Positions 24,101-51,997 of a stretch of 64,000 nt of DNA are shown here, one piece after another; positions within the stretch are counted from its first letter, which is position 1, and each line of letters opens with the position of its first letter. The position numbers were made by a program, and so were the translations under genes. Source of the DNA: a bacterium (GTDB taxonomy: Bacteria; Bacteroidota; Rhodothermia; Balneolales; M1805). Location of the stretch: assembly GCA_006226965.1 (NCBI GenBank), contig SBGQ01000043.1, positions 1 through 64,000 of the forward strand, written 5' to 3'. The notes beneath the pieces are model-generated. The model saw nothing but the letters and a program-made list of their open reading frames with translations. It did not search any database and had not been told where the DNA came from.

Positions 24101-24234
24101 TAAACCAAAGTGCGAGCGCGTGGAGTTCCAAAATCATTTTCAATAAAGGTGGCAACCGCCATTCCAACTGCAAAAATAAACAGTAAAACAACGGAGACTC
24201 TATTGGAGGTAAGGGCTTTAAAAACGGATTTCAT
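21139..24234 (-). CDS. ccsBA: Fused ResB-CcsA cytochrome c maturation protein (System II)
   Basis: A 1031-residue fusion. The N-terminal part (to about 450) is ResB/CcsB-like: membrane helices near 12-35, 45-65, 75-95, a large periplasmic insert and a helix near 415-435. A second signal-like hydrophobic stretch near 450-475 leads to another periplasmic domain. The C-terminal ~300 residues are CcsA/ResC with several helices and the haem-handling WWD motif WGRYWGWDPKETWALI (from residue 927). System II proteins carry haem across the membrane and ligate it to CXXCH. Fusions are known in Bacteroidota and epsilon-proteobacteria. Placement beside nrfHA suggests it serves NrfA, which needs an unusual CXXCK ligation. 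Confidence 0.9.
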   Translation of the reverse strand: MKSVFKALTSNRVSVVLLFIFAVGMAVATFIENDFGTPRARTLVYNALWFEVVMGWLAINFIMQIKAYRLLSKEKWSIGLFHLGFAVTLIGAFVTRYFGFEGWAHIREGQTVSHITSAEPFLQVQELQADGVWETIYSEKANYKGGNFSLSRDKVNGLTIEQTQFYPRANPVVVEGRDTLLQLVVAAPERIDTWLRYGEIRTIGAHSYSFGAKESADVTIELSGDSLVIISPHIMHIQNMSAEYHGALAAQTLAGLHLRMVYQFEESAFLVPDFYSNADLAYELNPNKEDKTAADFLKLTFFKGDNSETITLKEHNGDAENWEMVQVNDKAYRAAFGIKSIPLGFSLELTDFELERYPGSQSPSSFASNLIVHGKEGHFPYRIFMNNVLDYNGFRFFQASYDTDEKGTVLSVNHDFWGTWITYLGYAMLTIFMIWTLFSPKSRFTMLRKKMSKSLQLGMFMLVATLGFSIHAQAQFNPKTQLAIHPEISSAFGELVVQDLDGRMKPMNTLSLEILRKISGKTTITVPFVDAVYTLDADQFVLSTQLNPQIWADIPVIKVGKSIREDAVQYLGKEVPSTLAFSELLDENGAYRLQARVEEAAQKKPATQNDADKEYLKLDERFNIFYGLITGEFLRVYPHKEDQNHTWYTAHHAAEAMQAEDARFAENALPLLSNLIQRETEEGHKQAVELIGYIAQYQKMAGKEVYPNETRLQVELFDNQFSILSRLFTGFMSVGAIWLVIAFVNVFQPFSWYRQVHGVGIGMSIFLFFAFTAGMLLRWYIAERPPWTDGFEMLLLASWGIILMGLITGKNNVFTLPLSVQFTGVLLFVAYLDWLNPEITNLVPVLKSYWLKIHVAVIVLGYAPLALSALLSFMYLLLRAIQPKQQTDAIKKTMKDLTVLAEINITIGLFLLTIGTFLGGIWANESWGRYWGWDPKETWALISVIVYAIVLHLRLIPIQNIKHWFNVATMWAFSSIIMTSFGVNYYLAGLHSYAKGDPVPIPVWVWWVTGALLILTVLSFRKEKSLSSVNS

Positions 24235-25824: not shown

Positions 25825-27297
25825 TTATCGTGTACCGTAAGCAGCTTCACGCTGTTTGGCTTCTTCCAGCCACTTAGGAACTACTTGATCTAAGAATTTG
25901 GCTTTTGCTTCTTTTTCTTTTTTGATGTCTAAGCCAACATAAATTTGTGCTTTTTCTTTGGTTGAAATATCTGGCATAGGAACTTCACCGGTATGACCCA
26001 ACTTTGCCAATAATCGTGTGATATTGATACGTGCGTTTTGCACTTTTTGGGTAGCCGTTGTAACAATTCTACTGATTTCAACAGGTGCATGGAAGGAAGC
26101 CCCGTGCGAAGCCACCGAAAAATCCCAACGCCATTGAGCGTGACGAATATCTTGCAAAATTTCTTTCATTTGTGCTTCGGTTGCTCCTTTTTTCCAGGCA
26201 AAACCGGCTTCAATATGAGCTTTAACCAACAATCTCTCTAATTCACGGGTACCTTCTTTTATTTTGGTCTGACGTGTAAACACATCGCGCATCAAGGATT
26301 CTGTTTTTTCGCGGTGGCACACAAAACAAGAGTTTTCAATGTTAGCCAATGGTGATTGAATATGGTGATCGGTGAACTTTTGTCCACCTTCCGTTTTATA
26401 TGGCATATGACAATCGGCACAAGAAACACCACGTTGAGCATGAATTCCTTCTTTGAAAACTTCGTAATCCGGATGCTGTGCTTTTAACATTTTTGCTTTA
26501 GAAATGGGATGAGTCCAATCGGCAAAATCAATGGCATCATAATATTTCTCCATGTCTTCAACAGTAAAACCATTTTTCCAAGGGAACGTTAAGTATTGGG
26601 CGCCATCCACTTTTTTCTTGTCGAAATAATATTCAACGTGGCACTGTGCACAAACCAAGGAACGCATTTCCTGATGAGTTGCTTTCGTGATGTCTTCACC
26701 GCGAGCTGCAAACGCTTCAATCAAGGCCGGACGAGTAATCGTTAATTTCATGGTTTCATTGTCGTGGCAGTCAGCACAACCGATATCATTAACCACTTCT
26801 GCACCTAAATCCGACCATTTTTTAGAATAATATTCCGCAACACCTATTTCTTTCATCAAACGAGGAACGTCAGGACTTTTACAGGTCCAGCAAGTACTTG
26901 GCATAGGTCCTTCACCCTCCTTCATTGGAGCGCCGGTACGCAAAGTTTCCTGAATGTCTTTCACCGCATGCATGTGTCCACGTGGTTGATTGTAATCTTT
27001 TGAAAATCCGTATCCAGCCCATAAAACGACCAATTCAGGAGCATCCTTTAACGCATCGCGACGATTAGAATACAAGTATTTACTATGAAAAGTGGTGTCT
27101 TGTGTGCGCATATACGATTCGTACTGACGAGGAAAATTATCGCCCCACTTTTCGTTTCGAGGCTCTAACTCCATAATCGGAGTCAGGTTTTGATAGGCAA
27201 ATTTTGCTTCTGTTTTCCGCTCAATAATGGTTGTAGTAACCCAGGCAAGGGCTAATACGGCGGCTATTGTAATCCCAAATAAAATCCAGTTTTTCAT
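25825..27297 (-). CDS. nrfA: Cytochrome c nitrite reductase, pentahaem catalytic subunit
   Basis: A 490-residue NrfA. The catalytic haem site CWTCK (C136, C139, K140) uses lysine as the proximal ligand, and four CXXCH sites follow at 174-178, 216-220, 293-297 and 324-328. The segment KYYDAIDFADWTHP and distal HHIQSPL are conserved around the active site and Ca site. The enzyme reduces nitrite to ammonium with six electrons in the periplasm, fed by NrfH. The N-terminus keeps a hydrophobic signal/anchor (8-26). It lies 33 bp behind nrfH on the same strand; porin, ccsBA and sod follow. Confidence 0.97.
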   Translation of the reverse strand: MKNWILFGITIAAVLALAWVTTTIIERKTEAKFAYQNLTPIMELEPRNEKWGDNFPRQYESYMRTQDTTFHSKYLYSNRRDALKDAPELVVLWAGYGFSKDYNQPRGHMHAVKDIQETLRTGAPMKEGEGPMPSTCWTCKSPDVPRLMKEIGVAEYYSKKWSDLGAEVVNDIGCADCHDNETMKLTITRPALIEAFAARGEDITKATHQEMRSLVCAQCHVEYYFDKKKVDGAQYLTFPWKNGFTVEDMEKYYDAIDFADWTHPISKAKMLKAQHPDYEVFKEGIHAQRGVSCADCHMPYKTEGGQKFTDHHIQSPLANIENSCFVCHREKTESLMRDVFTRQTKIKEGTRELERLLVKAHIEAGFAWKKGATEAQMKEILQDIRHAQWRWDFSVASHGASFHAPVEISRIVTTATQKVQNARINITRLLAKLGHTGEVPMPDISTKEKAQIYVGLDIKKEKEAKAKFLDQVVPKWLEEAKQREAAYGTR

Positions 27298-27330
27298 AGT
27301 GTTTACGTTTGGTGTATTGGATAAAATCGT

Positions 27331-27936
27331 TTATTTCTCGGTGTTCAGTTGCTTTTCCAGCCATTGCGGAATTATGTTATGATCATCAACTGTATTGACC
27401 GTTTTTTCGAGTAGATATCGGGTAGCTGAGAGGCTTTTTGTCTTTCCATGAGGCACCTCTTTGTGGCAATCCCAACAAAGCCGACTAGTTCGAGCTTCGG
27501 CATGTTCTGCAACAAAAAATTCGGTTTTAGCGTCGGTCACTTGGTCTTGATGACAACGAATACAATTCGACTGAATCACATTTACGGAAGCTTCACGTGC
27601 TTTTATAACCTGAGGCTCACCTCTTGTGGTAAATACATACGAGTGATAAAGCCCGTCCATAGCCTTAAAAGCGTATTTCTTGAATTCAGAATCTTGAGGC
27701 ACATGGCAATCATTACAATGAGCCACTTCTCTGTGTGAGCTGTGTTTCCAGGTTTGATACTGAGGTGTCATAACATGACAGTTAATACAAGCTTTCGGGT
27801 CGTCGGTCATGTAAGAAACAGCATTTGAAATGATAGCTGTATAAAGCCCGATAGATACAAAAGCTGTTAATAATGCAATTACTGGAAGTCGCCAACTTGG
27901 TGGAGGTGAGAGAAATTGCCAAACTTTTTTGATCAC
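27331..27936 (-). CDS. nrfH: NrfH-type tetrahaem quinol dehydrogenase
   Basis: A 201-residue NapC/NirT/NrfH protein. One N-terminal membrane helix (about 17-38) is followed by four CXXCH sites: 50-54, 74-78, 125-129 and 154-158. It oxidises menaquinol and passes electrons to NrfA. The start codon is GTG with a strong ribosome site (CAGGAGGATTACC) directly before it, unusual for this window where Shine-Dalgarno sequences are mostly weak. First gene of the nrf run; a candidate -7 element and a near-palindrome lie about 25-40 bp upstream. Confidence 0.95.
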   Translation of the reverse strand: MIKKVWQFLSPPPSWRLPVIALLTAFVSIGLYTAIISNAVSYMTDDPKACINCHVMTPQYQTWKHSSHREVAHCNDCHVPQDSEFKKYAFKAMDGLYHSYVFTTRGEPQVIKAREASVNVIQSNCIRCHQDQVTDAKTEFFVAEHAEARTSRLCWDCHKEVPHGKTKSLSATRYLLEKTVNTVDDHNIIPQWLEKQLNTEK

Positions 27937-38305: not shown

Positions 38306-38740
38306 ATGATTGCTTCTAAAACATGTGAATTAGCTATTCGGGCACTCATTCTTATCGCTCAAGATAAGTCGGGCGAGCCTGTTCGAATTTCTTATTTACA
38401 TGAAGAATTAGAAGTTGGCTTTTCGTTTATGACTAAAATTTTACAACCTCTAACCCATTCCGGGGTTCTCGTTTCCTTAAAAGGGGCGAAAGGCGGTTTA
38501 GTATTAAACAAAAAGCCTGAGGAAATTAATCTCAAGCAAATTGTTGAGATTATGGACGGGGATACTCTTTTCACCAAATGCGCTTTAGGCTTACCCAAAT
38601 GCGGGCATCCTGAAACGTGCGCATTTCATGAAAGCTGGACACCTGTAAGAGAACTTCTCACACAAACTTTTCAACAAACGACACTTGCTCAATTATCTAA
38701 AACAGGAAGCGAATCCCTTTTAAACAAATTAGTAGGCTGA
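38306..38740 (+). CDS. Rrf2-family regulator with three cysteines (NsrR/IscR-like)
   Basis: A 144-residue Rrf2 protein. The winged helix is at the N-terminus (CELAIRALILIAQ ... MTKILQPLTHSGVLVSLKGAKGG). The effector loop KCALGLPKCGHPETCAFH holds C92, C99 and C105, fitting an Fe-S cluster like that of NsrR or IscR, so it may sense NO, O2 or cluster status. It directly precedes cytochrome c and nosZ; a perfect 23-bp inverted repeat in the 57-bp gap is its most likely binding site. A close paralogue ends the cluster at 51584-51997. Confidence 0.87.
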   Translation: MIASKTCELAIRALILIAQDKSGEPVRISYLHEELEVGFSFMTKILQPLTHSGVLVSLKGAKGGLVLNKKPEEINLKQIVEIMDGDTLFTKCALGLPKCGHPETCAFHESWTPVRELLTQTFQQTTLAQLSKTGSESLLNKLVG

Positions 38741-38797: not shown

Positions 38798-39253
38798 ATG
38801 AAACACATCTTTACCGCCCTCTTATTTTTGGCTCTGATTTCTTGTGGAAATTCTGATGAATCTCACACAAAAAAAGCATCGGCCAGTAAAACAAATGCAT
38901 CAGGAATTAGCGATTTCGAATTGAAAAACGGAATTGGCCCCGTTAAAGAAGAAGTAAAATTGGGCGCTTTAAATCAAACGCTTGTCAATTCTGGTAAAGC
39001 AGTTTTTGAATTGAATTGCTCTGCCTGCCATAAAACTTCAGAACGATATGTTGGCCCTCAATTAGATGATATGCTAACACGAAGAACCCCAACCTATTTG
39101 ATGAATATGATGCTAAATCCTGATGAAATGATTAAAAAACATCCGGAAGGAAAAAAAATGTTTGCGCAGTTTTTAACACCAATGCCCAAACAAAACATCA
39201 CGCTTGAACAAGCCCGGTCAATCGTTGAGTACATAAGAACAGTACAAAAGTAA
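38798..39253 (+). CDS. Monohaem c-type cytochrome lipoprotein, probable electron donor to NosZ
   Basis: A 151-residue lipoprotein: MKHIFTALLFLALISC with Cys at 16. After a flexible linker (about 20-60) comes a small class I cytochrome c domain with CSACH (C74-H78) and a likely Met axial ligand in LTPMPKQN. Its place directly before nosZ (87 bp) with an operator-like repeat in front suggests it feeds electrons to NosZ, as cytochromes c in clade II nos clusters are thought to do. Periplasmic, membrane-tethered. Confidence 0.87.
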   Translation: MKHIFTALLFLALISCGNSDESHTKKASASKTNASGISDFELKNGIGPVKEEVKLGALNQTLVNSGKAVFELNCSACHKTSERYVGPQLDDMLTRRTPTYLMNMMLNPDEMIKKHPEGKKMFAQFLTPMPKQNITLEQARSIVEYIRTVQK

Positions 39254-39340
39254 CGGGTAAAAAAACATCACACAATAACACATCAATTGCTTCTTATTGA
39301 ATCTAATACTCAATGTTGCAATTTACTTATGGAGATCACT

Positions 39341-41284
39341 ATGAAAAAAAAATTATGGCTTTCGGCTATCGTTGCTGCAGTGGTTTTAGCATCATGTGCT
39401 AAAAAAGCTGATTTAGGCGGCCATCAAGAAGCTGCTCAAAAAGTGTATGTTGCACCGGGCGAGCATGACGAATTTTATGGTTTTATGTCAGGCGGTTTTA
39501 ACGGGCAATTAGGAATTTATGGACTACCCTCAGGTAGACATTTGTACACTGTTCCTATTTTTTCACAAGCGCCTGTAAACGGTTATGGCTATTCTGAAGA
39601 AACAAAAGATATGCTTAAAACCTCTTATGGATTTATTCCTTGGGGAGATGCTCACCATCCGGAATTGTCTCAAACTGATGGCGTACCTGACGGTAGATGG
39701 CTGTTTATTAATGAAAACAACACCCCACGAATTGCTCGTGTAGATTTAAAAACATTCAGAACTGATGAAATTATTGAGATTCCAAACTCTGCGGGAAATC
39801 ACGCCTCATCATTCGTGACCATGAATACCGAATATGTTTCAGCGGCAACTCGTTTTTCTGTTCCTGTTGATGGTGGCAATAAAGATGTAGCTATTGATTC
39901 CTATAAAGAGAACTTTGGCGGAACCATCACTTTTGTAAAAGTAAGCCAAGAGGGCCATATGAATATTGAATTTCAATTATTGGTTCCCGGCTTTAATTAC
40001 GATTTATCACATGCCGGAAAAGGAATTTCTGACGGATGGGCATTTTTCACGACTTACAATACAGAACAAGCACACACTTTATTAGAAATTAATGCATCGC
40101 AAGCGGACAAAGATTTCATTGCAGCTATAAATTGGAAAAAAGCTGTTGAGTATGTTAAGTCCGGTAAAGGAAAAAAAATGTCAGGCTTGCATACTGTAAA
40201 TCATTTTGACCACAAAAAAGGAACTGCTGTTTCAGAATTACGGAAAGAAGTTATTACGCTAAACCCTAAAGATAATCCCGGAATTATCTATTTCTTACCG
40301 ACTCCAAAATCTCCGCATGGTGTTGATGTTGACCCAAGTGGACGTTTTATTGTTGGCGGCGGAAAATTAGCAACCGTATTACCTGTTCACTCATTCGAAA
40401 AAATGATTAAAGCCATTGAAGACAAAGCATTTGAAGGTGAAGCCGGCGGTATTCCTATTCTAAAATACGACGCGGTAATTCATGCTGAAGTAGAAAACCC
40501 GGGCCTTGGGCCACTTCATACCGAATTTGACGGAAAAGGCTTTGCTTATACAACTGCATTTTTAAGCTCAGAAGTTGTTAAATGGTCGTTGGAAACCTTT
40601 GAAGTTGTTGACCGCATTGACACCTACTATTCACCCGGTCACTTAATGATTCCCGGCGGTGATTCTCGCAAACCTTGGGGTAAATACTTAGTTGTACTAA
40701 ACAAAATCACCAAAGACAGATATCTCCCAACCGGCCCGGAACTATTCCATTCTGCTCAACTTATTGATATCTCCGGCGATAAAATGAAACTTTTGCTCGA
40801 TTTCCCGACGGAAGGTGAGCCACATTATGCACAAGGTATCGCAGCTGAAATCATAAAAAATAACCAAGTAAGATTTTTTCCTTTAGCTGATAATGGCCAT
40901 GAATGGGCGGCAAAATCTGAAAAAGAAACCGAAGTAATTCGCAAAGGAAATGTTGTACATGTTAAAATGACATCAATAAGAAGCCATTTTATGCCTGATA
41001 ACATCGAAGGTATTAAAGTGGGTGATGAAGTGTATTTCCACGTAACGAATTTGGAACAGGATTGGGATCTACCTCACGGTTTTTCCATTCTGGGAAATAA
41101 CAATGCAGAACTTCTGATTATGCCGGGCGAAACACTCACGATAAAATGGACCCCGACTCGTGAAGGTATCTTCCCATTCTACTGTACTGATTTCTGTAGC
41201 GCATTACATCAGGAAATGCAAGGTTATATACGTGTATCAGCTAAAAACAGTAATACACCAATAAAATTCAATTCCCCGAAATAA
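39341..41284 (+). CDS. nosZ: Nitrous oxide reductase, clade II (Sec-exported)
   Basis: A 647-residue NosZ. I use the ATG at 39341 (preceded by GGAGATCACT), which gives MKKKLWLSAIVAAVVLASC, a lipoprotein/Sec signal rather than the twin-Arg signal of clade I. The seven-bladed propeller carries the CuZ site (e.g. GNHASSF, PHGVDVDPSGR). The cupredoxin end has the CuA ligands C615, C619, H623 and M626 in FYCTDFCSALHQEM. It reduces N2O to N2 in the periplasm. No truncation or missing ligand seen. Cytochrome c precedes it, and the copper and haem assembly genes nosL, nosD, nosF and nosY follow. Confidence 0.97.
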   Translation: MKKKLWLSAIVAAVVLASCAKKADLGGHQEAAQKVYVAPGEHDEFYGFMSGGFNGQLGIYGLPSGRHLYTVPIFSQAPVNGYGYSEETKDMLKTSYGFIPWGDAHHPELSQTDGVPDGRWLFINENNTPRIARVDLKTFRTDEIIEIPNSAGNHASSFVTMNTEYVSAATRFSVPVDGGNKDVAIDSYKENFGGTITFVKVSQEGHMNIEFQLLVPGFNYDLSHAGKGISDGWAFFTTYNTEQAHTLLEINASQADKDFIAAINWKKAVEYVKSGKGKKMSGLHTVNHFDHKKGTAVSELRKEVITLNPKDNPGIIYFLPTPKSPHGVDVDPSGRFIVGGGKLATVLPVHSFEKMIKAIEDKAFEGEAGGIPILKYDAVIHAEVENPGLGPLHTEFDGKGFAYTTAFLSSEVVKWSLETFEVVDRIDTYYSPGHLMIPGGDSRKPWGKYLVVLNKITKDRYLPTGPELFHSAQLIDISGDKMKLLLDFPTEGEPHYAQGIAAEIIKNNQVRFFPLADNGHEWAAKSEKETEVIRKGNVVHVKMTSIRSHFMPDNIEGIKVGDEVYFHVTNLEQDWDLPHGFSILGNNNAELLIMPGETLTIKWTPTREGIFPFYCTDFCSALHQEMQGYIRVSAKNSNTPIKFNSPK

Positions 41285-41430: not shown

Positions 41431-42453
41431 ATGAAACGCTTACCTCAACTTTTATTTATAGCTGCTATTTTGCTCATATCAAGCGTTTATGTTTTTCCTA
41501 TTTGGAAAATTGATTTGAGAGCACCACAATATCCGGAAGGAATCGGTTTATTGATCTGGGTAAATCAAATTACAGGTCAACAGCCACAAGATCTTAAAAA
41601 CATTAATGGATTAAACCACTACATAGGAATGAAAGAGATTGTACCGGAATCCATTCCTGAACTTGTGTGGATGCCATGGTTATTTGGTGTTTTGATTGTT
41701 TTTGGAGCTTTTACAGTTTATAAAAATAAGCGCAGTTTGTATTTGCTTTGGACTTCATCATTTCTGGGATTAGGAGCAATCGGATTAATAGATTTTTATT
41801 TATGGGGATATGATTACGGACATAATTTGAATCCAACTGCCCCAATCCGTGTTCCGGGTATGACCTACCAACCACCATTAATAGGAAGTAAACAGCTATT
41901 AAACATGAATGCTCTTTCTGTACCTGATATTTCCGGAATATTAGTTTTTTTAGCAATGGCATTAGCCATAACAGCACTAATACTTCTGTTTAATAAAAAG
42001 TTATCAGGCAAACTTCATTTATTACTTTTCTTGAGTTTTCTTGGACTTCAATCTTGCGAAAAAGGCCCTAAAGAACCCGATTTGAAATTGGATTCTTGTG
42101 CATACTGTGAAATGAAAATCACACAATTACCTTTTGTCAGCCAATCGCAAACTGTTTATGGAAAACCCTACTTCTTCGACTCAATAGAATGTATGGCCGC
42201 ATATTCTCAAAAAAGCGATACTGATTTTGTGCTTGAATATGCGTGGGTAACACACTTTGGAACTCAACCTGAATGGGTTCCGATACAACAAGCTTACTTT
42301 ATTCATAACAAAGAAATTAAATCTCCGATGGGGTTAAGCTTAGTTGCATTTAAAAGTGAAGCGGAGTTGTTGGAATTCAAAAAAACTTACGGAGGTGAAA
42401 CTCTGAATTGGAATGATGTTAAACAATTTGTTTCAGCATCTTGGAATTTGTAA
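41431..42453 (+). CDS. nosL: Fusion of a multi-helix membrane domain to NosL
   Basis: A 340-residue protein. Residues 1-195 hold about four membrane helices (near 5-25, 82-97, 105-127, 168-188) with periplasmic loops rich in Pro and His. At 196-209 LLLFLSFLGLQSC is a lipoprotein-like signal with a lipobox Cys at 209, now internal. From 210 a NosL domain follows, with the Cu(I)-binding CAYCEM (C223, C226, M228) and a conserved FFDSIECM. NosL delivers copper to NosZ. In other Bacteroidota the two parts can be separate genes. It lies between nosZ and nosD (16 bp gap). Confidence 0.82.
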   Translation: MKRLPQLLFIAAILLISSVYVFPIWKIDLRAPQYPEGIGLLIWVNQITGQQPQDLKNINGLNHYIGMKEIVPESIPELVWMPWLFGVLIVFGAFTVYKNKRSLYLLWTSSFLGLGAIGLIDFYLWGYDYGHNLNPTAPIRVPGMTYQPPLIGSKQLLNMNALSVPDISGILVFLAMALAITALILLFNKKLSGKLHLLLFLSFLGLQSCEKGPKEPDLKLDSCAYCEMKITQLPFVSQSQTVYGKPYFFDSIECMAAYSQKSDTDFVLEYAWVTHFGTQPEWVPIQQAYFIHNKEIKSPMGLSLVAFKSEAELLEFKKTYGGETLNWNDVKQFVSASWNL

Positions 42454-42469
42454 AACCAAAATAACAGCC

Positions 42470-43699
42470 ATGAAAACTCGGTTAACTCTCTGTTTGATAT
42501 TACTTTTTCCACTGATTACATCAGCACAAAAAAGAATACCCGTTTCTGTTGGCGATTCCCTTCAGGCCTTGATAAACAATTCAGAAAACGGAGATACCCT
42601 TTTCTTTAACTCAGGAATTTATTCAAATACAAGCCTGCGCATCAACAAAAAATTACATCTAAGAGCCGATAAACATGCCATCCTAGTTGGTGCTGATACA
42701 GGCTCAATTGTTCAAGTCGTTCATTCGGGCGTAAGTATTTCGGGTTTAACGTTCAAAAATACTCCAATAAGTTTCATTCGTGAATATGCTGCAATTGAAA
42801 TCATAAAAAGCAGTGATATCACCATCAAAAACAACACGTTTGAAGATAATTTCTTTGCCGTTTACTTATCTGATAGCCAAAATATCACCATTATGGAAAA
42901 TGATATAAACGCATCCAATAAACGAGAAAGCAACTCAGGTAATGCCATTCATTCCTGGAAATCTGAACACATTCGTATTGAAAATAATCGACTTGAAGGT
43001 CACAGAGATGGTGTTTATTTAGAGTTTTCTAAACACATCTTTGTTAAAAACAATATCAGTATTCATCAGCTTCGTTACGGTTTACATTTCATGTTTTCTG
43101 ATTCGTGCACCTATGAAGCAAACCGATTTGAGGATAATGGCGCCGGTGTTGCCGTTATGTATTCAAAATTCGTTTCTATGAAAAAGAATGTCTTTATCGG
43201 TAATAAAGGCGCTAACACTTACGGTTTACTGCTCAAAGAAATTTTCGACAGCGATATTACCGAAAACACTTTTTATGACAATACAACTGCCATTTATTTA
43301 GAAGCTTCCAATCGGATTTTTGTCCATCATAATACATTCTCTAAAAACGGATGGGCTATTAAACTAAAAGCAAATTCTATCTCGAATCGCTTCGAAAACA
43401 ACAATTTTATGGGAAATGTGTTTGATTTAGCGACTAACAGCCGCCAAAATTACAATTCGTTAAAAGGGAATTATTGGTCGCAATTTAACGGATACGATTT
43501 AGATAACGACGGAATCGGAGACACCCCATATCGGCCGGCTCGATTATTCGGCGCCATAATCGATAAACAACCATTGGCATTATTACTCGTGCATTCTCAG
43601 TTTGCTCAGTTGTTAGACTGGGTTGATTCCGTCCTGCCCATTTTAACACCGGAATCACTTAAAGACACATCACCGCGAATGAAACCCGTTTTGTTATGA
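42470..43699 (+). CDS. nosD: NosD, periplasmic beta-helix protein
   Basis: A 409-residue protein with signal peptide MKTRLTLCLILLFPLITSAQ and repeated right-handed beta-helix turns (ITIKNNTFEDNFFAVYL, IRIENNRLEGHRDGVYL, TENTFYDNTTAIYLEAS), ending NYWSQFNGYDLDNDGIGDTP, the NosD hallmark. It is needed for assembly of the NosZ copper site together with NosF and NosY, probably carrying a sulfur or copper species. The ATG at 42470 is chosen over an upstream one inside the nosL gene. It overlaps nosF by four bases (ATGA). Confidence 0.92.
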   Translation: MKTRLTLCLILLFPLITSAQKRIPVSVGDSLQALINNSENGDTLFFNSGIYSNTSLRINKKLHLRADKHAILVGADTGSIVQVVHSGVSISGLTFKNTPISFIREYAAIEIIKSSDITIKNNTFEDNFFAVYLSDSQNITIMENDINASNKRESNSGNAIHSWKSEHIRIENNRLEGHRDGVYLEFSKHIFVKNNISIHQLRYGLHFMFSDSCTYEANRFEDNGAGVAVMYSKFVSMKKNVFIGNKGANTYGLLLKEIFDSDITENTFYDNTTAIYLEASNRIFVHHNTFSKNGWAIKLKANSISNRFENNNFMGNVFDLATNSRQNYNSLKGNYWSQFNGYDLDNDGIGDTPYRPARLFGAIIDKQPLALLLVHSQFAQLLDWVDSVLPILTPESLKDTSPRMKPVLL

Positions 43700-44406
43700 T
43701 AGAAATTATTAACCTCAGTAAATCTTTCGGCACAAACCGAATTCTGCAACAGATTTCACTCAGCCTTAAACCCGGAAAAGTAACCGCACTTATCGGGCCA
43801 AATGGCGCAGGAAAATCTACTTTAATTAAGACTATTCTTGGATTAGTAAAAATTGAGAGTGGTTCAATTCTCTTAGATGGATTATCCGTTCAAGACGAAA
43901 AAACACGTGCAAAGATTGGCTATATGCCTCAGGCTCCTCAATTCCCGCCTCATATGACGGTCAGAGAAATCATTGAGTTTGTACAAAAACTTAGGGTTGA
44001 GTCTCCTCACAGAGACATGAAACTCCTCAATCAACTCGGGTTGCAATTCGAATTGGACAAACCGTTCAAAACACTTTCCGGCGGAACCAAACAAAAAGTA
44101 AGTGCGGTAATCGCATTTCTATTCTTACCAGAGGTTCTCATTTTAGATGAGCCGACTGCTGGCTTAGATCCTGTTTCAGCGTTAACGTTTAAAAATCGTG
44201 TAAGAGAAGAATCAAAATCCGGAAAAACCATTCTTTATACCTCACATATCCTTCAAGAAATTGAAGAACTAGCGGACGAGCTCATTTATTTGCAAGAAGG
44301 GAAAGTTGTACTTCAAATTGAATTAAAAGAGTTTTTATCGACATACAAAACACATTCGCTTGAACAAGCTTTGGCAATACATATCTCAAAGCAAGAGGCA
44401 GCCTAA
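43696..44406 (+). CDS. nosF: NosF, ABC transporter ATP-binding protein
   Basis: A 236-residue ABC ATPase. Walker A GPNGAGKST (34-42), signature LSGGT, Walker [14 protein letters not shown] and the switch His in YTSHILQE are intact. It pairs with NosY to energise NosD-dependent maturation of NosZ. Translational coupling is visible on both sides: ATGA overlap with nosD and TAATG with nosY. Cytosolic face of the inner membrane. Confidence 0.93.
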   Translation: MIEIINLSKSFGTNRILQQISLSLKPGKVTALIGPNGAGKSTLIKTILGLVKIESGSILLDGLSVQDEKTRAKIGYMPQAPQFPPHMTVREIIEFVQKLRVESPHRDMKLLNQLGLQFELDKPFKTLSGGTKQKVSAVIAFLFLPEVLILDEPTAGLDPVSALTFKNRVREESKSGKTILYTSHILQEIEELADELIYLQEGKVVLQIELKEFLSTYKTHSLEQALAIHISKQEAA

Positions 44407-45188
44407 TGAAAAAGACCTTATTCCTTTTCCAATTTAAAAATCAATTAAGAAGTAAATGGGTTTACATTGTTCTCTTAGCCATTTGTTCACTTTCTGATTT
44501 AATGCTCCGATTTAGCGGCGATGGTGCAAAAAGCATACTCAGCCTAATTAATTTGTCATTGTTTTTTATTCCTGTAATTGTTGCTATACAAACCGCAATG
44601 TTTATTTATGGTAATCGTGAATACATGGAGTTGGTGTTAACACAACCTGTAAAACGCGGGGTTTTAATAGTTCAACTGTGGCTGGCGTTTTGGATTCCAG
44701 TCGCTCTGGCCATTTTTTTAGGCATGTTATTGCCATTTATTTATTTACAAGAAGGTTGGCCGTATGTTGATGCCGTAATTCAACTTTCTTTTATTACAAA
44801 CATTTTAGCCGGAATCTTTTCATTATTAGCCGTATTGATTTCTCTTTCTCATGATGACAAAGCCAAAGGACTTGGCGTTTTACTTGGATATTGGTTGTTT
44901 TTAAGCATTGTTTATGATGGTTTGATGCTGTTTACCATTCAAGCATTGTCAGATTTTTCTTTACGAGAAATCAGCTTACTAGCTGTTTCACTAAATCCGG
45001 TTGACCTCGCCCGAATATTATTGCTTATGCTCAATAATGGTGCGGCTTTATTAGGTGTAACAGGAGCGTTATTCGAGCGATTCGCCGGCACTATTGTGGG
45101 AATAATCTCGATAAGTTCACTACTTCTTATCTGGTTTCTCATTCCCGGGTGGCTCTCCTACAAAAAGTTTTTATCCAAAGACTTTTAA
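44406..45188 (+). CDS. nosY: NosY, ABC transporter permease
   Basis: A 260-residue ABC-2 type permease with six predicted membrane helices (near 18-32, 51-70, 93-113, 128-150, 158-178 and 230-250). The region NREYMELVLTQPVKRGVLIV is typical of NosY. Partner of NosF; together with NosD it forms the membrane complex for NosZ maturation. The start overlaps the nosF stop by one base. A 68-bp gap follows before the DUF2249 gene. Confidence 0.9.
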   Translation: MKKTLFLFQFKNQLRSKWVYIVLLAICSLSDLMLRFSGDGAKSILSLINLSLFFIPVIVAIQTAMFIYGNREYMELVLTQPVKRGVLIVQLWLAFWIPVALAIFLGMLLPFIYLQEGWPYVDAVIQLSFITNILAGIFSLLAVLISLSHDDKAKGLGVLLGYWLFLSIVYDGLMLFTIQALSDFSLREISLLAVSLNPVDLARILLLMLNNGAALLGVTGALFERFAGTIVGIISISSLLLIWFLIPGWLSYKKFLSKDF

Positions 45189-45256: not shown

Positions 45257-45565
45257 ATGGATACCAAACAAACAATCTTCATTTCAGAACTTCCTCATAG
45301 CGAACGTCACCTTGCCGTTTTTAATGCATTTGATTCACTTGCACTTCAGGATTCATTCGAAATCGTTGTGGACCACGAACCAAGAGGTTTAATTCGTCAA
45401 TTTCAGCAATTCCGTGGCGGACAATCAGCATGGAAATTAATAAAACAAGAAAACGGATTTATTTGGTTTCAGATATCGCGCATTCTTGAAGCACCGGAAA
45501 ATCAACCTGAACTCGCGATTGAACATCATGGATGCGGTTGTGGAAATCATCACCATCATCACTAA
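45257..45565 (+). CDS. DUF2249 protein with Cys/His-rich tail
   Basis: A 102-residue protein, ATG at 45257. The DUF2249 domain is clear: HSERHLAVFNAFDSL, FEIVVDHEPRGLIRQFQQ and WKLIKQENGFIWFQISRI. DUF2249 proteins are often found near nitrogen oxide respiration genes and have a TusA-like fold. The C-terminus HHGCGCGNHHHHH is striking: two Cys and seven His that could bind Cu, Zn or Fe. It is native, since the downstream gene continues five bases later. No signal peptide: cytosolic. Likely role: metal or sulfur handling for the nos system. Confidence 0.8.
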   Translation: MDTKQTIFISELPHSERHLAVFNAFDSLALQDSFEIVVDHEPRGLIRQFQQFRGGQSAWKLIKQENGFIWFQISRILEAPENQPELAIEHHGCGCGNHHHHH

Positions 45566-45570
45566 GAGTC

Positions 45571-45882
45571 ATGGAAAACTTAACCCATTTTGTACTGGAA
45601 ACACCGGATTCCATTCAAACACAAAGCACACTTTCTAAAAACTTTTTTAAGTCGGAAAACTTCCGTGCAATGATGTTTAGTTTCGCTGTTGATGAAGAAC
45701 TAACCGAACATTCGTCAAAAAAAACAGCCATTCTACACGTTCTATCAGGCACCGGCACATTCGGCACCGATAAGGAAGTTGTTGACTTAAAACCCAACGC
45801 ATGGATTCATATTCCGGCTGATTTAAAACATTGGGTTAAAGCCAAGGAAGAACTTCATTTCCTTTTGTATTTAATTGGTTGA
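45571..45882 (+). CDS. Small cupin-domain protein
   Basis: A 103-residue single cupin. The barrel motifs are present in reduced form: HSSKKTAILHVLSGTGTFG ... LKPNAWIHIPADLKHWVKAKEEL. Expected metal ligands are partly kept (H59-region and H90-region His; the usual HxH pair is not complete), so metal binding is uncertain. The start is five bases past the DUF2249 stop, pointing to co-translation. Cupins of this sort occur in denitrification clusters with NnrS-like and DUF2249 genes. No signal peptide: cytosolic. Confidence 0.75.
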   Translation: MENLTHFVLETPDSIQTQSTLSKNFFKSENFRAMMFSFAVDEELTEHSSKKTAILHVLSGTGTFGTDKEVVDLKPNAWIHIPADLKHWVKAKEELHFLLYLIG

Positions 45883-45913: not shown

Positions 45914-46312
45914 ATGCCAACAGTTAGTCGTTTTTTTCTGAAATCTGGTTTTATCTGGCTCATCATTTCGATGCTTTTTTTTGGTTTACAGCAAATTGAG
46001 CCCGGATTTCGCATTGCCTACCATCATACACTGGGCTTAGGCTGGGTCACTCAAATCATTATCGGAGTTGCTATTTGGATGTTTCCCCGTTGGAGCAGTG
46101 CTTTGCCTAAAGGTCCGATGTGGGTTTGGTGGCTGGTTTATATCACACTGAATTTAGGATTATTGTTACGGATTTTATCTGAGCAATTTCTGTCTCTTCA
46201 ATCTGAATTTGTATCCATCGTACTCATTATTTCGGGGTTTTTGTTGTGGATTTCGATGATGGCTTTCATCGGTATAATGTGGAAACGTGTTAAAGCAAAG
46301 CAACCGATATGA
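45914..46312 (+). CDS. Four-helix membrane protein A, NnrS/haem-copper-like, tandem paralogue
   Basis: A 132-residue protein with four predicted membrane helices. The central block YHHTLGLGWVTQIIIGVAIWMFPR has adjacent His residues at a helix start, a pattern shared with NnrS-type and oxidase subunit I-like proteins that bind haem. It aligns along its length with the next gene product (His then GW-x8-G-A-W-x-MP-[RK]), so the two are tandem duplicates. They overlap by four bases (ATGA). Function unknown; NO or haem/copper handling is inferred from motif and location. Confidence 0.65.
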   Translation: MPTVSRFFLKSGFIWLIISMLFFGLQQIEPGFRIAYHHTLGLGWVTQIIIGVAIWMFPRWSSALPKGPMWVWWLVYITLNLGLLLRILSEQFLSLQSEFVSIVLIISGFLLWISMMAFIGIMWKRVKAKQPI

Positions 46313-46716
46313 TGCCAAGGGTTAGTATCGTTTTTATACGCTGGGCATTGATTCAACTTGGAATTGCTTCAACAATCGGGCTCATTATTCTTATTAGTAA
46401 AGCATCCGGAATCTGGATATGGAGTTGGAATTATCGCCCTCTGCACACGGAAGCTATTTGGTTCGGTTGGATTATCAACTTTGTAATTGGTACAGCCTGG
46501 TGGATTATGCCTAAACGTCCGGATTTACCCGATAAATTCGGTAACGAATGGTTTGCATGGCTCAGTTTCACTTTCCTTCAAATAGATTGGTTTTACCGCA
46601 TTTTTGTAGATGTATTTAACGCCCCAACAGTCATTCGCTTTACACCACTATTAGCAATTATTTGTTTTGTGATTGGAATCTGGCCAAGACTAAAACACAT
46701 CATACACGAACATTAG
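46309..46716 (+). CDS. Four-helix membrane protein B, NnrS/haem-copper-like, tandem paralogue
   Basis: A 135-residue membrane protein, paralogue of the preceding one. LHTEAIWFGWIINFVIGTAWW followed by IMPKRPDLPD matches the His-GW-G-W-MP pattern of protein A, and the following F-Y-R-I block matches L-L-R-I. Four predicted helices, no signal peptide. The ATG overlaps the stop of gene A by four bases and the stop lies four bases before the larger membrane gene, so the three are one translational unit and plausibly one complex. Confidence 0.65.
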   Translation: MMPRVSIVFIRWALIQLGIASTIGLIILISKASGIWIWSWNYRPLHTEAIWFGWIINFVIGTAWWIMPKRPDLPDKFGNEWFAWLSFTFLQIDWFYRIFVDVFNAPTVIRFTPLLAIICFVIGIWPRLKHIIHEH

Positions 46717-46720
46717 TCTA

Positions 46721-47851
46721 ATGCAAAAGCGGTATTCATTGAACACGCATGTACGAGTCCCGGGTTTATTCTATCTCGTAATTACTCTTCTATCAGGAAT
46801 AGGATTACGCATACAATGGCTCTTCCCTGATTGGAGTGTATTCTCACAAAAGTTTGCAATACATGCCCATTCTCACTTGGCTCTTTTAGGCTGGCTTTTC
46901 CCGATTTTGTTGTACTCATTAGTGAAACGGGATACACAACTCACTTCTTTCTTACGCTGGAACATCTACATATTGCATGGATTGATTATAGCCATGTTTC
47001 CGGCTTTTTTACTTCAAGGATATGCCTTTTACTCCATCTTGTTTTCATCACTTTATCTGATTGTTTCTTATTCCATTTTATGGCAACTCAGGAATGAATT
47101 GGAGTTGGGAAAGAATCCGGTAAAAACATGGGCTGTTTTATTTTACGTTGCATCAACAATTGGTCCTTGGCTTTTAGGCGGATCAACTGTATTTGGCCAA
47201 GTTTGGATGAACGCCTGGATTGCATGGTTTCTGCATTTGCAATTTAATGGTTGGGTAACTTTTGGTTTATTGGCATTATTTTTCAGCCGAATTCCTTCGC
47301 CTAAATGGTTAATACACGTTTTCGCTACGGGCACACTCTTTATTTCATTTAGTTTGATGTTACCGCAAAACGACTTTCAACTGCTTAAAATAAGTGCTGT
47401 ATTTGCGGGCATCTTACTCACCTTGAGTTCCATATGGTTAGTAACAATCGTTGTTAAACAACACCAGAGAACTACTATAACCGGATTTATTATTCAACTT
47501 CTACTCTTAAAATCGTTCTTATTGGGGTTTTCCGGACTAGAAATCATGCAAAATTACATTCACCATATTCCGCAAGCCCGAGTTGCATTTACTCATACCA
47601 GCTTATTAGCCATAGCTTCAACATTTTTGCTTTTCTATAATGGTTTATCCAAAAAATTAACCCTGCTTTTTAGCACGGCATCGTGGCTTATGGTTGCTTT
47701 ACTTTGGATGGAACTCTTTGGCTTGTATTACAAAACCGGAATTCCATTTTCAATACAAGTACCTTATATAATTTTAGGAGTCGTGCTTTTGGGAACAATT
47801 TTACCGCTAATTCTAAAATCCGTAACCAAAGTAACACAAAACCCTTCTTAA
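46721..47851 (+). CDS. Large polytopic membrane protein, haem-copper oxidase subunit I/NnrS-like
   Basis: A 376-residue protein with about eleven hydrophobic helices. His residues lie in the membrane segments: HAHSHLALLGWLFP, WFLHLQFNGWVTFGLL and FTHTSLLAIAS. HLQFNGW resembles motifs of haem-binding oxidase-like proteins, yet no catalytic set of a true oxidase or NO reductase (six conserved His) can be laid out with confidence. The HAHSH-x5-GW block also resembles the two smaller proteins just upstream. It could be an NnrS-type NO-response protein or an assembly factor for copper or haem. It is co-translated with them. Confidence 0.6.
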   Translation: MQKRYSLNTHVRVPGLFYLVITLLSGIGLRIQWLFPDWSVFSQKFAIHAHSHLALLGWLFPILLYSLVKRDTQLTSFLRWNIYILHGLIIAMFPAFLLQGYAFYSILFSSLYLIVSYSILWQLRNELELGKNPVKTWAVLFYVASTIGPWLLGGSTVFGQVWMNAWIAWFLHLQFNGWVTFGLLALFFSRIPSPKWLIHVFATGTLFISFSLMLPQNDFQLLKISAVFAGILLTLSSIWLVTIVVKQHQRTTITGFIIQLLLLKSFLLGFSGLEIMQNYIHHIPQARVAFTHTSLLAIASTFLLFYNGLSKKLTLLFSTASWLMVALLWMELFGLYYKTGIPFSIQVPYIILGVVLLGTILPLILKSVTKVTQNPS

Positions 47852-47870: not shown

Positions 47871-48299
47871 TTGAAAACACCTATCCACATAAAACTCTTT
47901 TCTTCTTTCATGAGTGTGTTACTCATGTGGAATTTATTTGGCTGGTGGTTATATCCCGTAGTTCACGGCATTGTTGATAAACATCTGAACTCCGGTATTG
48001 AATGTTGTAACGGAGCAGAATTATGTTGTTGTAAAGCTGCCGGAGCCGACGCCTGTTACTGCTTACCGGGGCAAGACCATGGTGACAATAACGTAATGGT
48101 CTGCGGTATTGATGCACCTGATGCACATCCTAACGCACAAGAGCAAGGCGTTCTCGTTTTCTTTGAAATGAGAGCAACAGTTACTCAACTATCCTTTCTA
48201 ATTCCGGGAAAACATCTCCCGAATTTAAGCCCTTCGTTTTGGGAACTACCCTTATCCGGCTTTCTTAACGAGCAATTTCGCCCTCCCAAATTTTCATAA
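47871..48299 (+). CDS. Cys-rich membrane-anchored protein, unknown function
   Basis: A 142-residue protein. The TTG at 47871 is taken as start; the next Met codon (ATG at 47910) would cut the hydrophobic segment (about 10-32). Between residues 43 and 78 eight cysteines cluster: CC at 45-46, CCC at 52-54, C62, C64 and C78, with His nearby (QDHGD). The remaining C-terminus is plain. Such clusters bind Cu(I), Zn or Fe-S; with nosZ and a copper receptor next door, copper storage or transfer is a fair guess. I recognise no family. Confidence 0.55.
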   Translation: MKTPIHIKLFSSFMSVLLMWNLFGWWLYPVVHGIVDKHLNSGIECCNGAELCCCKAAGADACYCLPGQDHGDNNVMVCGIDAPDAHPNAQEQGVLVFFEMRATVTQLSFLIPGKHLPNLSPSFWELPLSGFLNEQFRPPKFS

Positions 48300-48396: not shown

Positions 48397-49194
48397 ATGA
48401 AAATCAATTTCTTAAAGGCAATTTCTATTGCACTTATCTCTATTGCTGTAATCTCTTGTAAAGATTCTACAACAACAGACAATTCGCTCGAACTTCTCTC
48501 TATTACTTCTGCTGAATCGGGCGATTACATCTTGCATCTTTCCGGCTTAAAACCACTCGAAACCGGCTACAATCGTTTGTTTTGGGATGTTTCTAAAGCT
48601 GGAACTACTGTCGAAATCGATTCAATTCTTGTAAATCCGATAATGGATATGACTACAATGACTCACTCTTGCCCCAAAGAAACGCCGTTTTCATCACAAG
48701 ATGCAGATGGTAAGTTTGAAGGCTACATGGTTTTTATCATGCCTAGCGGCGATATGGGCTCGTGGGCTATTACTGCTACCGCATACTTATCAAACGGAGA
48801 ATCGTTTACAGCCGCGGTTGATATAAGTGTGGCTAACTCTTGGAAATTGCAAAGCTTCACCTATAATGAAGTTAAATATTTTGTTTCCTGGGCTAGCCCT
48901 GATGAACCGTTTGTGGGAAAAAACACCGTTCAACTTATGCTCCACAAAAAGGCAACGATGATGAGTTTCCCTTCAACCGATGACCTTAGCTTATCAATTT
49001 ATCCGTACATGGATATGGGTTCAGGCGAGGGCCATTCCGCACCTTATGAACAAGTTGAGCGAATGGGAACGGGGCATTATAAAGGCTCCATCAGTTATAG
49101 TATGAGCGGCGACTGGCAAATTACAGTTTCTGCTAATTCCGGAAGTGAAACCGTTGCCGAAACGGTATTCAACATGAATGTTATCAGTAAATAA
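48397..49194 (+). CDS. Lipoprotein with tandem YtkA/FixH-like domains, Met/His-rich
   Basis: A 265-residue lipoprotein: MKINFLKAISIALISIAVISC, Cys at 21. Two immunoglobulin-like beta units of the YtkA/FixH type can be seen. The first contains NPIMDMTTMTHSCPKETP and VFIMPSGDMGSWAITATAY, the second IYPYMDMGSGEGHSAPYEQ and GHYKGSISYSMSGDWQITVSA. The repeated MDM and GH pairs are suited to copper binding, and YtkA-like domains are often linked to copper delivery for oxidases. It precedes the copper-type TonB receptor gene, so it may receive copper in the periplasm. Confidence 0.72.
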   Translation: MKINFLKAISIALISIAVISCKDSTTTDNSLELLSITSAESGDYILHLSGLKPLETGYNRLFWDVSKAGTTVEIDSILVNPIMDMTTMTHSCPKETPFSSQDADGKFEGYMVFIMPSGDMGSWAITATAYLSNGESFTAAVDISVANSWKLQSFTYNEVKYFVSWASPDEPFVGKNTVQLMLHKKATMMSFPSTDDLSLSIYPYMDMGSGEGHSAPYEQVERMGTGHYKGSISYSMSGDWQITVSANSGSETVAETVFNMNVISK

Positions 49195-49308: not shown

Positions 49309-51480
49309 ATGTATATACTTTTTATCGTTTTACTGATTATATCGCCCAATAGGCTTGTTTTGGTGGATGCACAGAACAAAGAACCTATCGCAGACGCATA
49401 TGGAATAACTTCATCCGGCAAGCTACTCATAAGTAATTCTGACGGTGTAATCGAGGTAAACAAAGAAATCCAACATCTCCAGATAAGCCACATAAACTAT
49501 CACACACTGCATATACTTGCTCCTTTTCCTGATACTGTTTTCATGCAAGCTCAAACTTATACAGGAAAAGATATTCTGGTAATCGGGAAAAAACAGGAAA
49601 ACGCTCAGATACATCAATATCAAGATTTCACAATAAACCAACCTGTTGAGCGACAATTGAGACAAATTGAAGGCTTGCAACTGGTTCAACGCGGGGCTTT
49701 TGCTTGGGAACCAATGGTTAGAGGCTTAAGTGACCAACGTTTAAGTGTTTCGATTGATGGGATGCGCGTTTATGCTGCTTGTACCGATAAAATGGACCCT
49801 CCAACCGCTTATATTGAAACAGGAAATCTTGAACAGATTACGATTCAAAAGGAAAGCAACTCTGGTTTAGAATCAGGAAACGGATTTGCAGGATTGCATT
49901 TAAAATTGCAAGAAGCACGATTTCAACATCAGTCCCTTCAACTCAGCTCAGGTTTTCGAGCACCCGACTCCTATCGCTTCTTTAGTATGACCGGAAACTC
50001 AGGTTGGCAAACGCAAGCGATTCGTTATTCAGTTTCTTTCAAACAAGCTGATGATTTTTCGGCATCCGATAATCAAGTCATAAAGAATTCGGGATTCAGC
50101 AAATTGAACGCCTCAATAAATCATCGTTGGCTGGATAAATCATTCACTGTCTCAAACACATTTATTTATGATGATGCCTGGGAAATGGGTTTTCCCGTTC
50201 TTTTAATGGATGCAACTCGCGCAAAAGCACTTATGCTACGGCAAGAGTGGCAATTCTTACGTCCCAATACATTATGGGCTAATCATTCTTTAATGGGATA
50301 TTACAATTCCGTTCGTCATAAAATGGATGATTACAGTCGGGATGTGGCCAATCGTGACGTAATGAGAAACATGTACATGCCCATGGAAGGAACAACTGAA
50401 ACCTTCGGTTTAACATGGAAAGCACATTCTTTATTCCATTCAAAACTCAATCTTAATATGGAATTGATTCAATCTACCGCAAACGGATTCATGCTTATGG
50501 AGCCCTTAGATACAACTATATCACCCATGTATTTAGACAATTTGTCTGATGTAGTTACACAAGAAGCAAAGTTCGGGTTTAATTATGAGTTTTCTCTGCT
50601 TAACGGTTGGTTAGCAACACCGAATGTGTCTTTATTGGTAAACCATATTTTCACAGACGATGAACGGTATGCGCAATATTTTGAAGAACTGTATCAAAAG
50701 AACACCAACACCAATGTGCGCTTGGCTTTTCAGGCACAAATTACACTTGCTAAACAGGTTGGCTCTTTCGGATATGTGAGCTTCAACACGTCAGTTAACG
50801 AGCGTAATCCAAACCACAATGAACGTTACTCACATTACATCTATAACTATGTTGACGGCTTCTTTTACGAAGGAAATCCTTGGCTTAAAAATGAGTTCAG
50901 CGTTGCTCAGGAAGTCTCATGGCAGCTCAATAAAGACTCTTATAGTTTGAATTTAAGTGGATTTTATCGCTCATTTAATAACTATATATCCGGCGTTTTT
51001 GACGCCAATCTAAGCTCAGAATATTATTCGTTTATGAGATATTCGAATGTTGGCAAAGCAACTCTTTTAGGATTTGAATTACGGGTACTTTCAAATCTAA
51101 CCCATTCCATTTCAATGGATAACCGTATTAGTTATACTAAAGGTAGATTAATCGGCTTAAACGATAACCTTCCGTATATAGCACCGCTCAGTGGTTACTC
51201 GAAAATAAATTGGAATACTTTTATAGGAAAGTTTACGCCCGTAATCGAATGGTCTGCTGCGCAAAACAATATTGCTGACAAAACCAGTATTGAAGACACC
51301 TCAAACGAATGGATGTTAGTTCACGTTTCTTGGGAACAATCATTTTATAATGATAATCTCCTAATCAACGCAGAAATTCAAAACGTTTTCGATACGTTTG
51401 TTGTACGCCATGTTAGTATGGGTAATCTACCTGAACATGGGCGCAGTTTCGGTATAAGTATTAAATACTTATTAAATTAA
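49309..51480 (+). CDS. TonB-dependent receptor, copper type (OprC/NosA-like)
   Basis: A 723-residue outer-membrane receptor. A short signal region is followed by a CarboxypepD-regulatory-like domain (about 16-75), a plug (VERQLRQIEGLQLVQRGAF, RLSVSIDGMRVYAACTDKMD) and a 22-strand-type barrel ending in an aromatic strand. GMRVYAACTDKMDPPTAYIE closely follows the Cys/Met copper-binding plug segment of OprC and NosA. Those proteins import copper and NosA was linked to NosZ biogenesis. Here it closes the nos cluster, downstream of a YtkA-type lipoprotein; the two may hand copper from the surface to the periplasm. Confidence 0.85.
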   Translation: MYILFIVLLIISPNRLVLVDAQNKEPIADAYGITSSGKLLISNSDGVIEVNKEIQHLQISHINYHTLHILAPFPDTVFMQAQTYTGKDILVIGKKQENAQIHQYQDFTINQPVERQLRQIEGLQLVQRGAFAWEPMVRGLSDQRLSVSIDGMRVYAACTDKMDPPTAYIETGNLEQITIQKESNSGLESGNGFAGLHLKLQEARFQHQSLQLSSGFRAPDSYRFFSMTGNSGWQTQAIRYSVSFKQADDFSASDNQVIKNSGFSKLNASINHRWLDKSFTVSNTFIYDDAWEMGFPVLLMDATRAKALMLRQEWQFLRPNTLWANHSLMGYYNSVRHKMDDYSRDVANRDVMRNMYMPMEGTTETFGLTWKAHSLFHSKLNLNMELIQSTANGFMLMEPLDTTISPMYLDNLSDVVTQEAKFGFNYEFSLLNGWLATPNVSLLVNHIFTDDERYAQYFEELYQKNTNTNVRLAFQAQITLAKQVGSFGYVSFNTSVNERNPNHNERYSHYIYNYVDGFFYEGNPWLKNEFSVAQEVSWQLNKDSYSLNLSGFYRSFNNYISGVFDANLSSEYYSFMRYSNVGKATLLGFELRVLSNLTHSISMDNRISYTKGRLIGLNDNLPYIAPLSGYSKINWNTFIGKFTPVIEWSAAQNNIADKTSIEDTSNEWMLVHVSWEQSFYNDNLLINAEIQNVFDTFVVRHVSMGNLPEHGRSFGISIKYLLN

Positions 51481-51583: not shown

Positions 51584-51997
51584 ATGATCACTACCAAATC
51601 TTGCCAATTTGCCATTAGAGCGCTCATCTATTTAGCGTTAAATAGCGATGGCAAACCTATCCAAATCTCGCGATTACATAAAGATTTAAATGTCGGTGCA
51701 GCTTATCTGACGAAAATATTACAACCGCTTACTCAACATGAAATCTTGGTTTCCTATAAAGGAACAAATGGCGGAGTTCAATTAAATCGCCCTGCAGATA
51801 AAATTTCTCTTTATGAAATTGTACACATTATAGACGGCGACGCTTTATTTGATGAATGTGCACTAGGAATACCAACTTGCAGTATCGAAACACCTTGTGC
51901 GTTTCATTTTAAATGGGCTGATATTCGTGATGAAATAAAATTCGCATTTCACGACACAACCATTGCAGATTTAGCTGCATCCGGCGGGCAAGTATAA
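51584..51997 (+). CDS. Second Rrf2-family regulator with three cysteines
   Basis: A 137-residue Rrf2 protein, clearly paralogous to the one at 38306-38740: same winged helix (QFAIRALIYLAL, YLTKILQPLTQHEILVSYKGTNGG) and the same loop ECALGIPTCSIETPCAFH with C92, C99 and C105 at identical spacing. It follows the copper receptor gene by 103 bp. Having one copy at each end of the nos region suggests a divided control, for example one for NO/O2 and one for copper or Fe-S status, though this is inference. Confidence 0.87.
   Translation: MITTKSCQFAIRALIYLALNSDGKPIQISRLHKDLNVGAAYLTKILQPLTQHEILVSYKGTNGGVQLNRPADKISLYEIVHIIDGDALFDECALGIPTCSIETPCAFHFKWADIRDEIKFAFHDTTIADLAASGGQV

Follow-up and report, generated by a model that had tools for sequence, protein, structure and literature searches.

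The catalytic subunits of all cytochrome oxidases and NO reductases have 12 helices in a pseudo-threefold arrangement, which has long made it plausible that they arose when a four-helix unit was triplicated. In the oxidases, the low-spin haem is ligated by one His of TM2 and one of TM10, so that two of these four-helix units each contribute their second helix; in the cbb3 oxidase subunit CcoN, the TM2 motif RP[LV]HTN bears such a ligand in the established structures. The literature that we found on NnrS together with haem-copper oxidases, on internal repeats and threefold symmetry in oxidases and on the numbering of CcoN ligands describes no free-standing single-unit protein. Surveys with a minimum length of 400 residues and a demand for all six conserved His ligands (of the low-spin haem, the high-spin haem and CuB/FeB; e.g., PMC3084760) would have thrown out such proteins. 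Many membrane proteins encoded around clade II NosZ also lack a known role. As for NO-responsive genes, nnrS and dnrN (encoding Ric) are core co-members of NsrR regulons, where a COG4309 gene has been reported beside norB (PMC1274295).

We analysed a window of 64,000 nucleotides from a Balneolales-type genome (3.78 Mb in 184 contigs; the named relatives of its order are Balneolales/Balneolia). Directly after a clade II nosZ cluster, it encodes three membrane proteins of 132, 135 and 376 amino acids, here called A (45914–46312), B (46309–46716) and C (46721–47851), all on the plus strand. The cluster upstream, on the same strand, begins with an Rrf2-family regulator in an NsrR-like position (38306–38740), which clusters with Rrf2 regulators located beside Ric and nos genes in relatives such as Tunicatimonas pelagia (plasmid NZ_CP120684.1, our locus L022). 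It continues with a c-type cytochrome lipoprotein, the NosZ partner (38798–39253; PF00034, E 1.6e-9), a Sec-dependent clade II N2O reductase gene, nosZ (39287–41284; TIGR04246, 922 bits against a cut-off of 625), and a region containing nosB-nosL, nosD, nosF and nosY (41431–45188), identified by PF05573 (NosL), NosB motifs and the ORFs; its nosD/F/Y part clusters with the annotated nosD, ABC and permease genes of L022. A DUF2249 protein, presumably of the COG4309 type, and a cupin protein (45257–45882; PF10006, E 3e-13, and PF07883, E 2e-7) precede A. The coordinates and lengths given in a preliminary description of this DNA hold, including the four-base overlap of A and B and the start of C four bases past B. 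The true start of B is probably the next ATG (46312, in TGATG), because a conserved 'MP' opens the B relatives (45 of 49 aligned sequences), in which case the overlap with A may be of one base.

Several other genes of this genome concern nitrogen oxides or copper. The product of the gene at 41431–42453 (340 aa, assigned by Pfam to NosL) bears the NosB signatures LNHYIGM and YGHN towards its N-terminus and reads as a NosB-NosL fusion, as described in some Flavobacterium strains (PMC9697520). On the minus strand, an nrfA-type cytochrome c552 nitrite reductase and a NapC/NrfH-type cytochrome (25825–27936) are accompanied by a ccsBA-like cytochrome c assembly gene (21139–24234); nitrite ammonification and N2O reduction thus appear to be encoded within the same window. 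The organism may also reduce NO, since its genome contains a NorB-like gene truncated by a contig edge, with RPMHTTSV and HH motifs (L094, G000:C83:11-868). Downstream of C, a Cys-rich ORF of 142 aa with a TTG start and without family match (47871–48299) lies before a YtkA-like lipoprotein (48397–49194), followed by a TonB-dependent receptor (49309–51480) and a second Rrf2 regulator (51584–51997). This stretch is possibly a copper uptake unit for NosZ.

A and B are homologous (profile-profile probability 99.9%, E about 1e-37). Each contains a single invariant His, found in the motif H-x4-GW-x6-GVA-x-W-MFP-R in A (His38, 46025–46027, 53 of 53 sequences) and in H-x6-GW-x6-G-x-A-x-W-x-x-P-K in B (His46, 46444–46446, 49 of 49). 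The His, Gly, Trp and Pro positions are invariant or nearly so across 53 A, 49 B and 45 C sequences, and the motifs are therefore not due to chance. The His-GW motif that had been noticed as common to the three proteins is thus real, with two amendments: six residues, not eight, follow GW, and the spacing between His and Gly is unequal in A (H-x4-G) and B (H-x6-G). The genes are also closely linked. In the 43 loci having both, B lies downstream of A on the same strand, at a distance of at most 60 nt in 42 of them.

Profile searches detected A-type and B-type proteins together in Balneolota, in Rhodothermota-like genomes of the same class and in Chloroflexota, and single copies in Gemmatimonadota, Planctomycetota and Bacteroidia. 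In the phylogenetic tree, A and B sequences formed two large groups, each spanning several phyla (B: 45 sequences, support 99), and the single-copy relatives made up a separate, third one. This topology rules out a recent tandem duplication; A and B, initially described as tandem duplicates, are indeed homologous, but their duplication is old and not local. It would be older than the split of the phyla bearing the pair, unless the pair was transferred between phyla as a unit.

Similarity to the oxidase family emerged when relatives were included. Searched directly against Pfam and NCBIfam, window A and window C had no COX1 match and nothing over a cut-off, and window B matched COX1 below the cut-off. 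Among relatives, 24 of 25 B-type and 15 of 24 A-type proteins matched PF00115 (COX1) at E<0.01, with one B relative (39.7 bits) exceeding the curated cut-off. When a combined A+B profile was searched against all PDB sequences, it retrieved three matches, all of them to TM9-12 of CcoN (E 1.7e-4), aligning the His region of the unit with CcoN 'GHVHAGALGWVAMITIG'. By contrast, A-only and B-only profiles, as well as the single window proteins (phmmer), produced only chance matches in PDB. The AF2 prediction for B had four helices (pLDDT 93.3) with His46 in helix 2; the segment around this His, RPLHTEAIWFGW, is similar to the TM2 motif of CcoN. The best fold match of the B model was cNOR (TM 0.75), a weak one at E 2.5 in this search with a single unit. 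A is placed in the same oxidase/NOR subunit I fold by its homology with B, and each protein would represent one third of this 12-helix fold. Motif spacing suggests that A corresponds to TM9-12 and B to TM1-4 of the full fold, an assignment limited to that criterion because the A-only and B-only profiles have no match in PDB.

Using broad alignments, the A profile matched the C profile three times, in register and end to end, with E-values of 1.1e-6, 2.4e-6 and 3.1e-5, compared with 0.03 or weaker for control multi-helix families (ctaA, nosY, CopD-like), 0.12 for reversed C and 0.013 at best for block-shuffled C. The three matches independently aligned A His38 onto C His52, His172 and His292, and B His46 was aligned onto C His50. 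C is accordingly built of three tandem copies of the A/B unit. Its AlphaFold model, of modest confidence (pTM 0.73, pLDDT 69.5, built on 7 sequences), contained 12 helices with these His in TM2, TM6 and TM10. In a fold search, its ten best PDB matches were all subunit I proteins (cbb3, cNOR, aa3 or bo3; probability 1.00, E 2e-3 or weaker). Window C matches no Pfam or NCBIfam family and its profile had no match in PDB; its membership in the oxidase family hence relies on its homology with A/B and on the predicted fold. Relatives of C occurred in 42 of the 395 genomes sampled in the phylum.

The conserved His residues of C are exactly five. Three form the cluster His48-Ala-His50-Ser-His52 in TM2 (46862–46876; conserved in 44, 45 and 45 of 45 proteins, respectively) and the others are His172 in TM6 (47234–47236; 34 of 45, hence lost in 11) and His292 in TM10 (47594–47596; 45 of 45). 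The two motifs noticed beforehand, HAHSHLALLGW and HLQFNGW, are those of TM2 and TM6, and a third equivalent His, that of TM10, had been overlooked. C thus has His at positions equivalent to the TM2 and TM10 ligands of low-spin haem. However, C has no conserved His of the CuB/FeB type in TM7, so that this site is missing and catalysis by C appears unlikely. With five, one and one conserved His in C, A and B, and lengths of 376, 132 and 135 residues, the three proteins fall short of the six ligands and 400 residues of catalytic haem-copper oxidases and NO reductases. The proposal of the preliminary description that they are split or expanded relatives of oxidase subunit I with an incomplete catalytic set is borne out by the PF00115 matches, by CcoN as the match in PDB, by the absent CuB-type His and by the structures predicted for B and C singly, which resembled oxidase/NOR-type folds rather than unrelated ones.

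The same description had also likened the three proteins to NnrS, and here sequence and gene context disagree. A, B and C of the window had no PF05940 match; A-family units of relatives matched only the last third of this model (positions about 251-369) and under the curated cut-off, and B and C did not match it. The one canonical NnrS available for comparison (L183, the sole clean sequence from the phylum) had E-values of 0.04 or weaker against the A, B and C profiles, which speaks against canonical NnrS as parent family at the sequence level, within the reach of this single sequence. NnrS above the cut-off was found in none of 129 genomes searched in the order and in 5 of 395 in the phylum. 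Three further proteins considered as NnrS-like candidates (L088, L180 and L181) were discarded, as they match COX1/CcoN and not NnrS. What did stand was the context, with Ric, an Rrf2/NsrR-type regulator and nir/nor/nos genes.

Indeed, the recurrent neighbours of the A, B and C families are genes for Ric, Rrf2 regulators, NirK, NOR and Nos proteins. At least one of Ric, nirK, qNOR, nosZ, nosD or truncated haemoglobin was present in 14 of 20 A-B loci, taken from whole genomes, and in 31 of 41 C loci, a lower bound as some of the latter lie on short contigs; Rrf2 regulators were also common at both. Ric was present in 13 of the 20 A-B loci, compared with an estimated chance expectation of ~1% of 16-kb stretches, and no Ric gene was found close to the cluster of the window itself. 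The linkage with Ric and nir/nor/nos genes is strong, and the families may be members of NO-responsive regulons. A-B and C lie in one operon or nearby in about a dozen Balneolales loci, but A-B without C and C without A-B each occur in many genomes. This separate occurrence makes the three-protein complex suggested earlier unlikely as an obligate unit.

Some of these loci have additional peculiarities. In two genomes of one genus (L084:9055-10857 and L085:7189-8970), a C-family protein carries the NosZ-associated cytochrome c as a C-terminal fusion domain, in which the Cys that marks the free form as a lipoprotein has become internal; these domains are about 40% identical to the window cytochrome at 38798–39253, that of L084 43% (blastp E 2.5e-27). 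An unnamed membrane family of 360 aa is often encoded immediately 5' of A-B in Chloroflexota and Rhodothermota-like genomes (L177:1429-2511; relatives in L096, L097, L100, L101, L104, L108 and L178). The A unit profile matches the last third of this family (E 1.1e-7), which is possibly a further multi-unit partner replacing C. In Bacteroidota, a three-unit COX1-related protein of ~421 aa is encoded near nos/Ric genes (L180:5735-7000, L181:6162-7427, L088:1-988); in L180 and L181, a single-unit A relative and a gene of the DUF59 type lie nearby. On the plasmid of L022, Tn3-type transposases flank a full nos gene cluster that includes Ric, Rrf2, C and truncated haemoglobin genes, which amounts to a mobile N2O-reduction island.

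Our preferred reading, to which we assign a probability of about 0.5, is that A, B and C are non-catalytic haem b proteins of the oxidase/NOR fold that belong to an NO-responsive nitrogen-oxide module. Its structural and evolutionary part, namely the existence in several phyla of single- and triple-unit subunit I relatives lacking the catalytic site, is well supported; homology, unit architecture, conserved His, lost catalytic ligands and genomic linkage come directly from the data. We infer haem binding, A-B pairing and the physiological role as follows. The basic piece would be a four-helix unit whose second helix supplies one haem-ligating His, present once in A, once in B and three times in the single chain of C, as in oxidase catalytic subunits. 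A and B probably pair, combining the H-x4-G His of A, similar to that of CcoN TM10, with the RPLH-x6-G His of B, similar to that of CcoN TM2, to hold one bis-His-ligated low-spin b haem at the subunit interface; this model is proposed because the two spacings are of the TM10 and the TM2 type, respectively. An equivalent low-spin haem is predicted in C between TM2 and TM10, i.e., between the first and third units. Since a CuB/FeB site is absent, none of the three proteins should reduce O2 or NO. They would serve the module of Rrf2/NsrR, Ric and nir/nor/nos genes in the position occupied by NnrS in Proteobacteria, as membrane haem proteins binding or buffering NO or keeping membrane redox carriers running during N2O/NO metabolism. 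We favour a role linked to NO because Ric and Rrf2 are constant companions, with or without nosZ.

Two observations argue against NO binding as such. A bis-His six-coordinate haem fits electron transfer better than NO binding, so that the predicted ligation counts against it, and the cytochrome c fused to C in L084 and L085 also points to electron transfer. A less likely but possible alternative is that C (and A-B) takes electrons or oxidises quinol via the low-spin haem b and passes the electrons to the small cytochrome c, or to azurin, as the supplier of NosZ or NirK. Such a relay would provide the quinol link that in Wolinella comes from NosG/C1/C2/H or the bc complex, and it agrees with the cytochrome fusions, with the predicted bis-His haem, a type common in electron transfer, and with the many clusters where C adjoins cytochrome c and nosZ, or azurin in Flavobacterium-type loci. 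Yet the fusion is limited to one genus, no quinone site was identified in the proteins, NosB-L is already encoded in the window and most A-B pairs of Balneolaceae, like the C genes in loci of the Flavobacterium type, accompany Ric and NO genes without nosZ.

The almost invariant HAHSH cluster of C, considered as a metal site, together with the CopD-like, SCO1, NosL, YtkA and ctaA-type genes near several loci, might instead indicate maturation factors that carry or insert haem or copper for NosZ, NirK or NOR. We regard this as unlikely, given that A and B lack any Cys or Met cluster and conserve only a single His each, that the family also occurs outside copper-enzyme clusters and that the His sit at the haem-ligand positions of the oxidase fold. 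An NO or O2 reductase that is split and still catalytic, with an active site built jointly by A, B and C, could be imagined from the fold, the nir/nor/nos linkage and the position of C His172 in TM6, comparable to that of a CuB ligand. This is highly improbable: the missing ligands speak against it (no conserved TM7 His pair, cross-linking Tyr-type position or Glu cluster, and only the five, one and one conserved His in C, A and B), His172 itself is lost in 11 of 45 C proteins, and A-B and C are found apart.

These single- and three-unit proteins also bear on how the oxidase fold arose. We speculate, as a rather unlikely scenario, that A and B are surviving building blocks, each one third of the haem-copper oxidase fold, with the haem site between chains as a possible pre-triplication ancestor had it, and that C and its 421-aa relative are triplicated non-catalytic side branches kept in NO-responsive operons. 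The single units may be ancestral or may be products of the fission of a longer protein; both are possible. In either case, a conserved two-gene couple of single units beside a three-unit protein makes the triplication idea amenable to structural and reconstitution tests. The A, B and C families are unnamed in the libraries searched and form a recurrent part of the nitrogen-oxide gene clusters of Bacteroidota, Balneolota and Chloroflexota, which hints at a haem module of nitrogen-oxide metabolism that has no name yet.

Among known systems, the NosB, NosG and NosH proteins and their cytochromes showed no homology to A, B or C in the Pfam/NCBIfam searches; the NosB of this clade II nos module is a separate domain, in the fusion at 41431–42453. 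DUF2871 (PF11070, 134 positions) is likewise a short family, uncharacterised, that matches some C proteins and one A relative weakly, and any relationship is read from these weak scores. The 421-aa protein of L180 and L181 shares with C the three four-helix units, matches the A, B and C profiles and is equally unnamed and uncharacterised, but exceeds the COX1 cut-off, which C does not. NnrS is similar in being a polytopic membrane protein associated with Ric/dnrN, with NsrR and with genes of denitrification, and in the weak match of A-family units to the last third of its model. NorB/qNOR (PDB 3o0r, 4xyd) differ by their FeB ligands and NorC partner, absent here, and the qNOR profile had no sequence-level match with C (E 0.07), but they share the link with NO metabolism and the fold (TM 0.64 for C and 0.75 for B). 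Finally, CcoN (PF00115, TIGR00780; PDB 3mk7, 9g6b) has the CuB His and catalytic Tyr that A, B and C lack, is about 100 residues longer than C, does not have the HxHxH of C TM2, and contains three times the single third represented by A or B. At the same time, it resembles C in fold and in the His positions of TM2, TM6 and TM10, and its four-helix unit is related in sequence to A and B, its TM2 RP[LV]HT being similar to RPLHT of B and its TM10 HAGALGWVAMITIG-x4-IP to HTLGLGWVTQIIIG-x4-FP of A.
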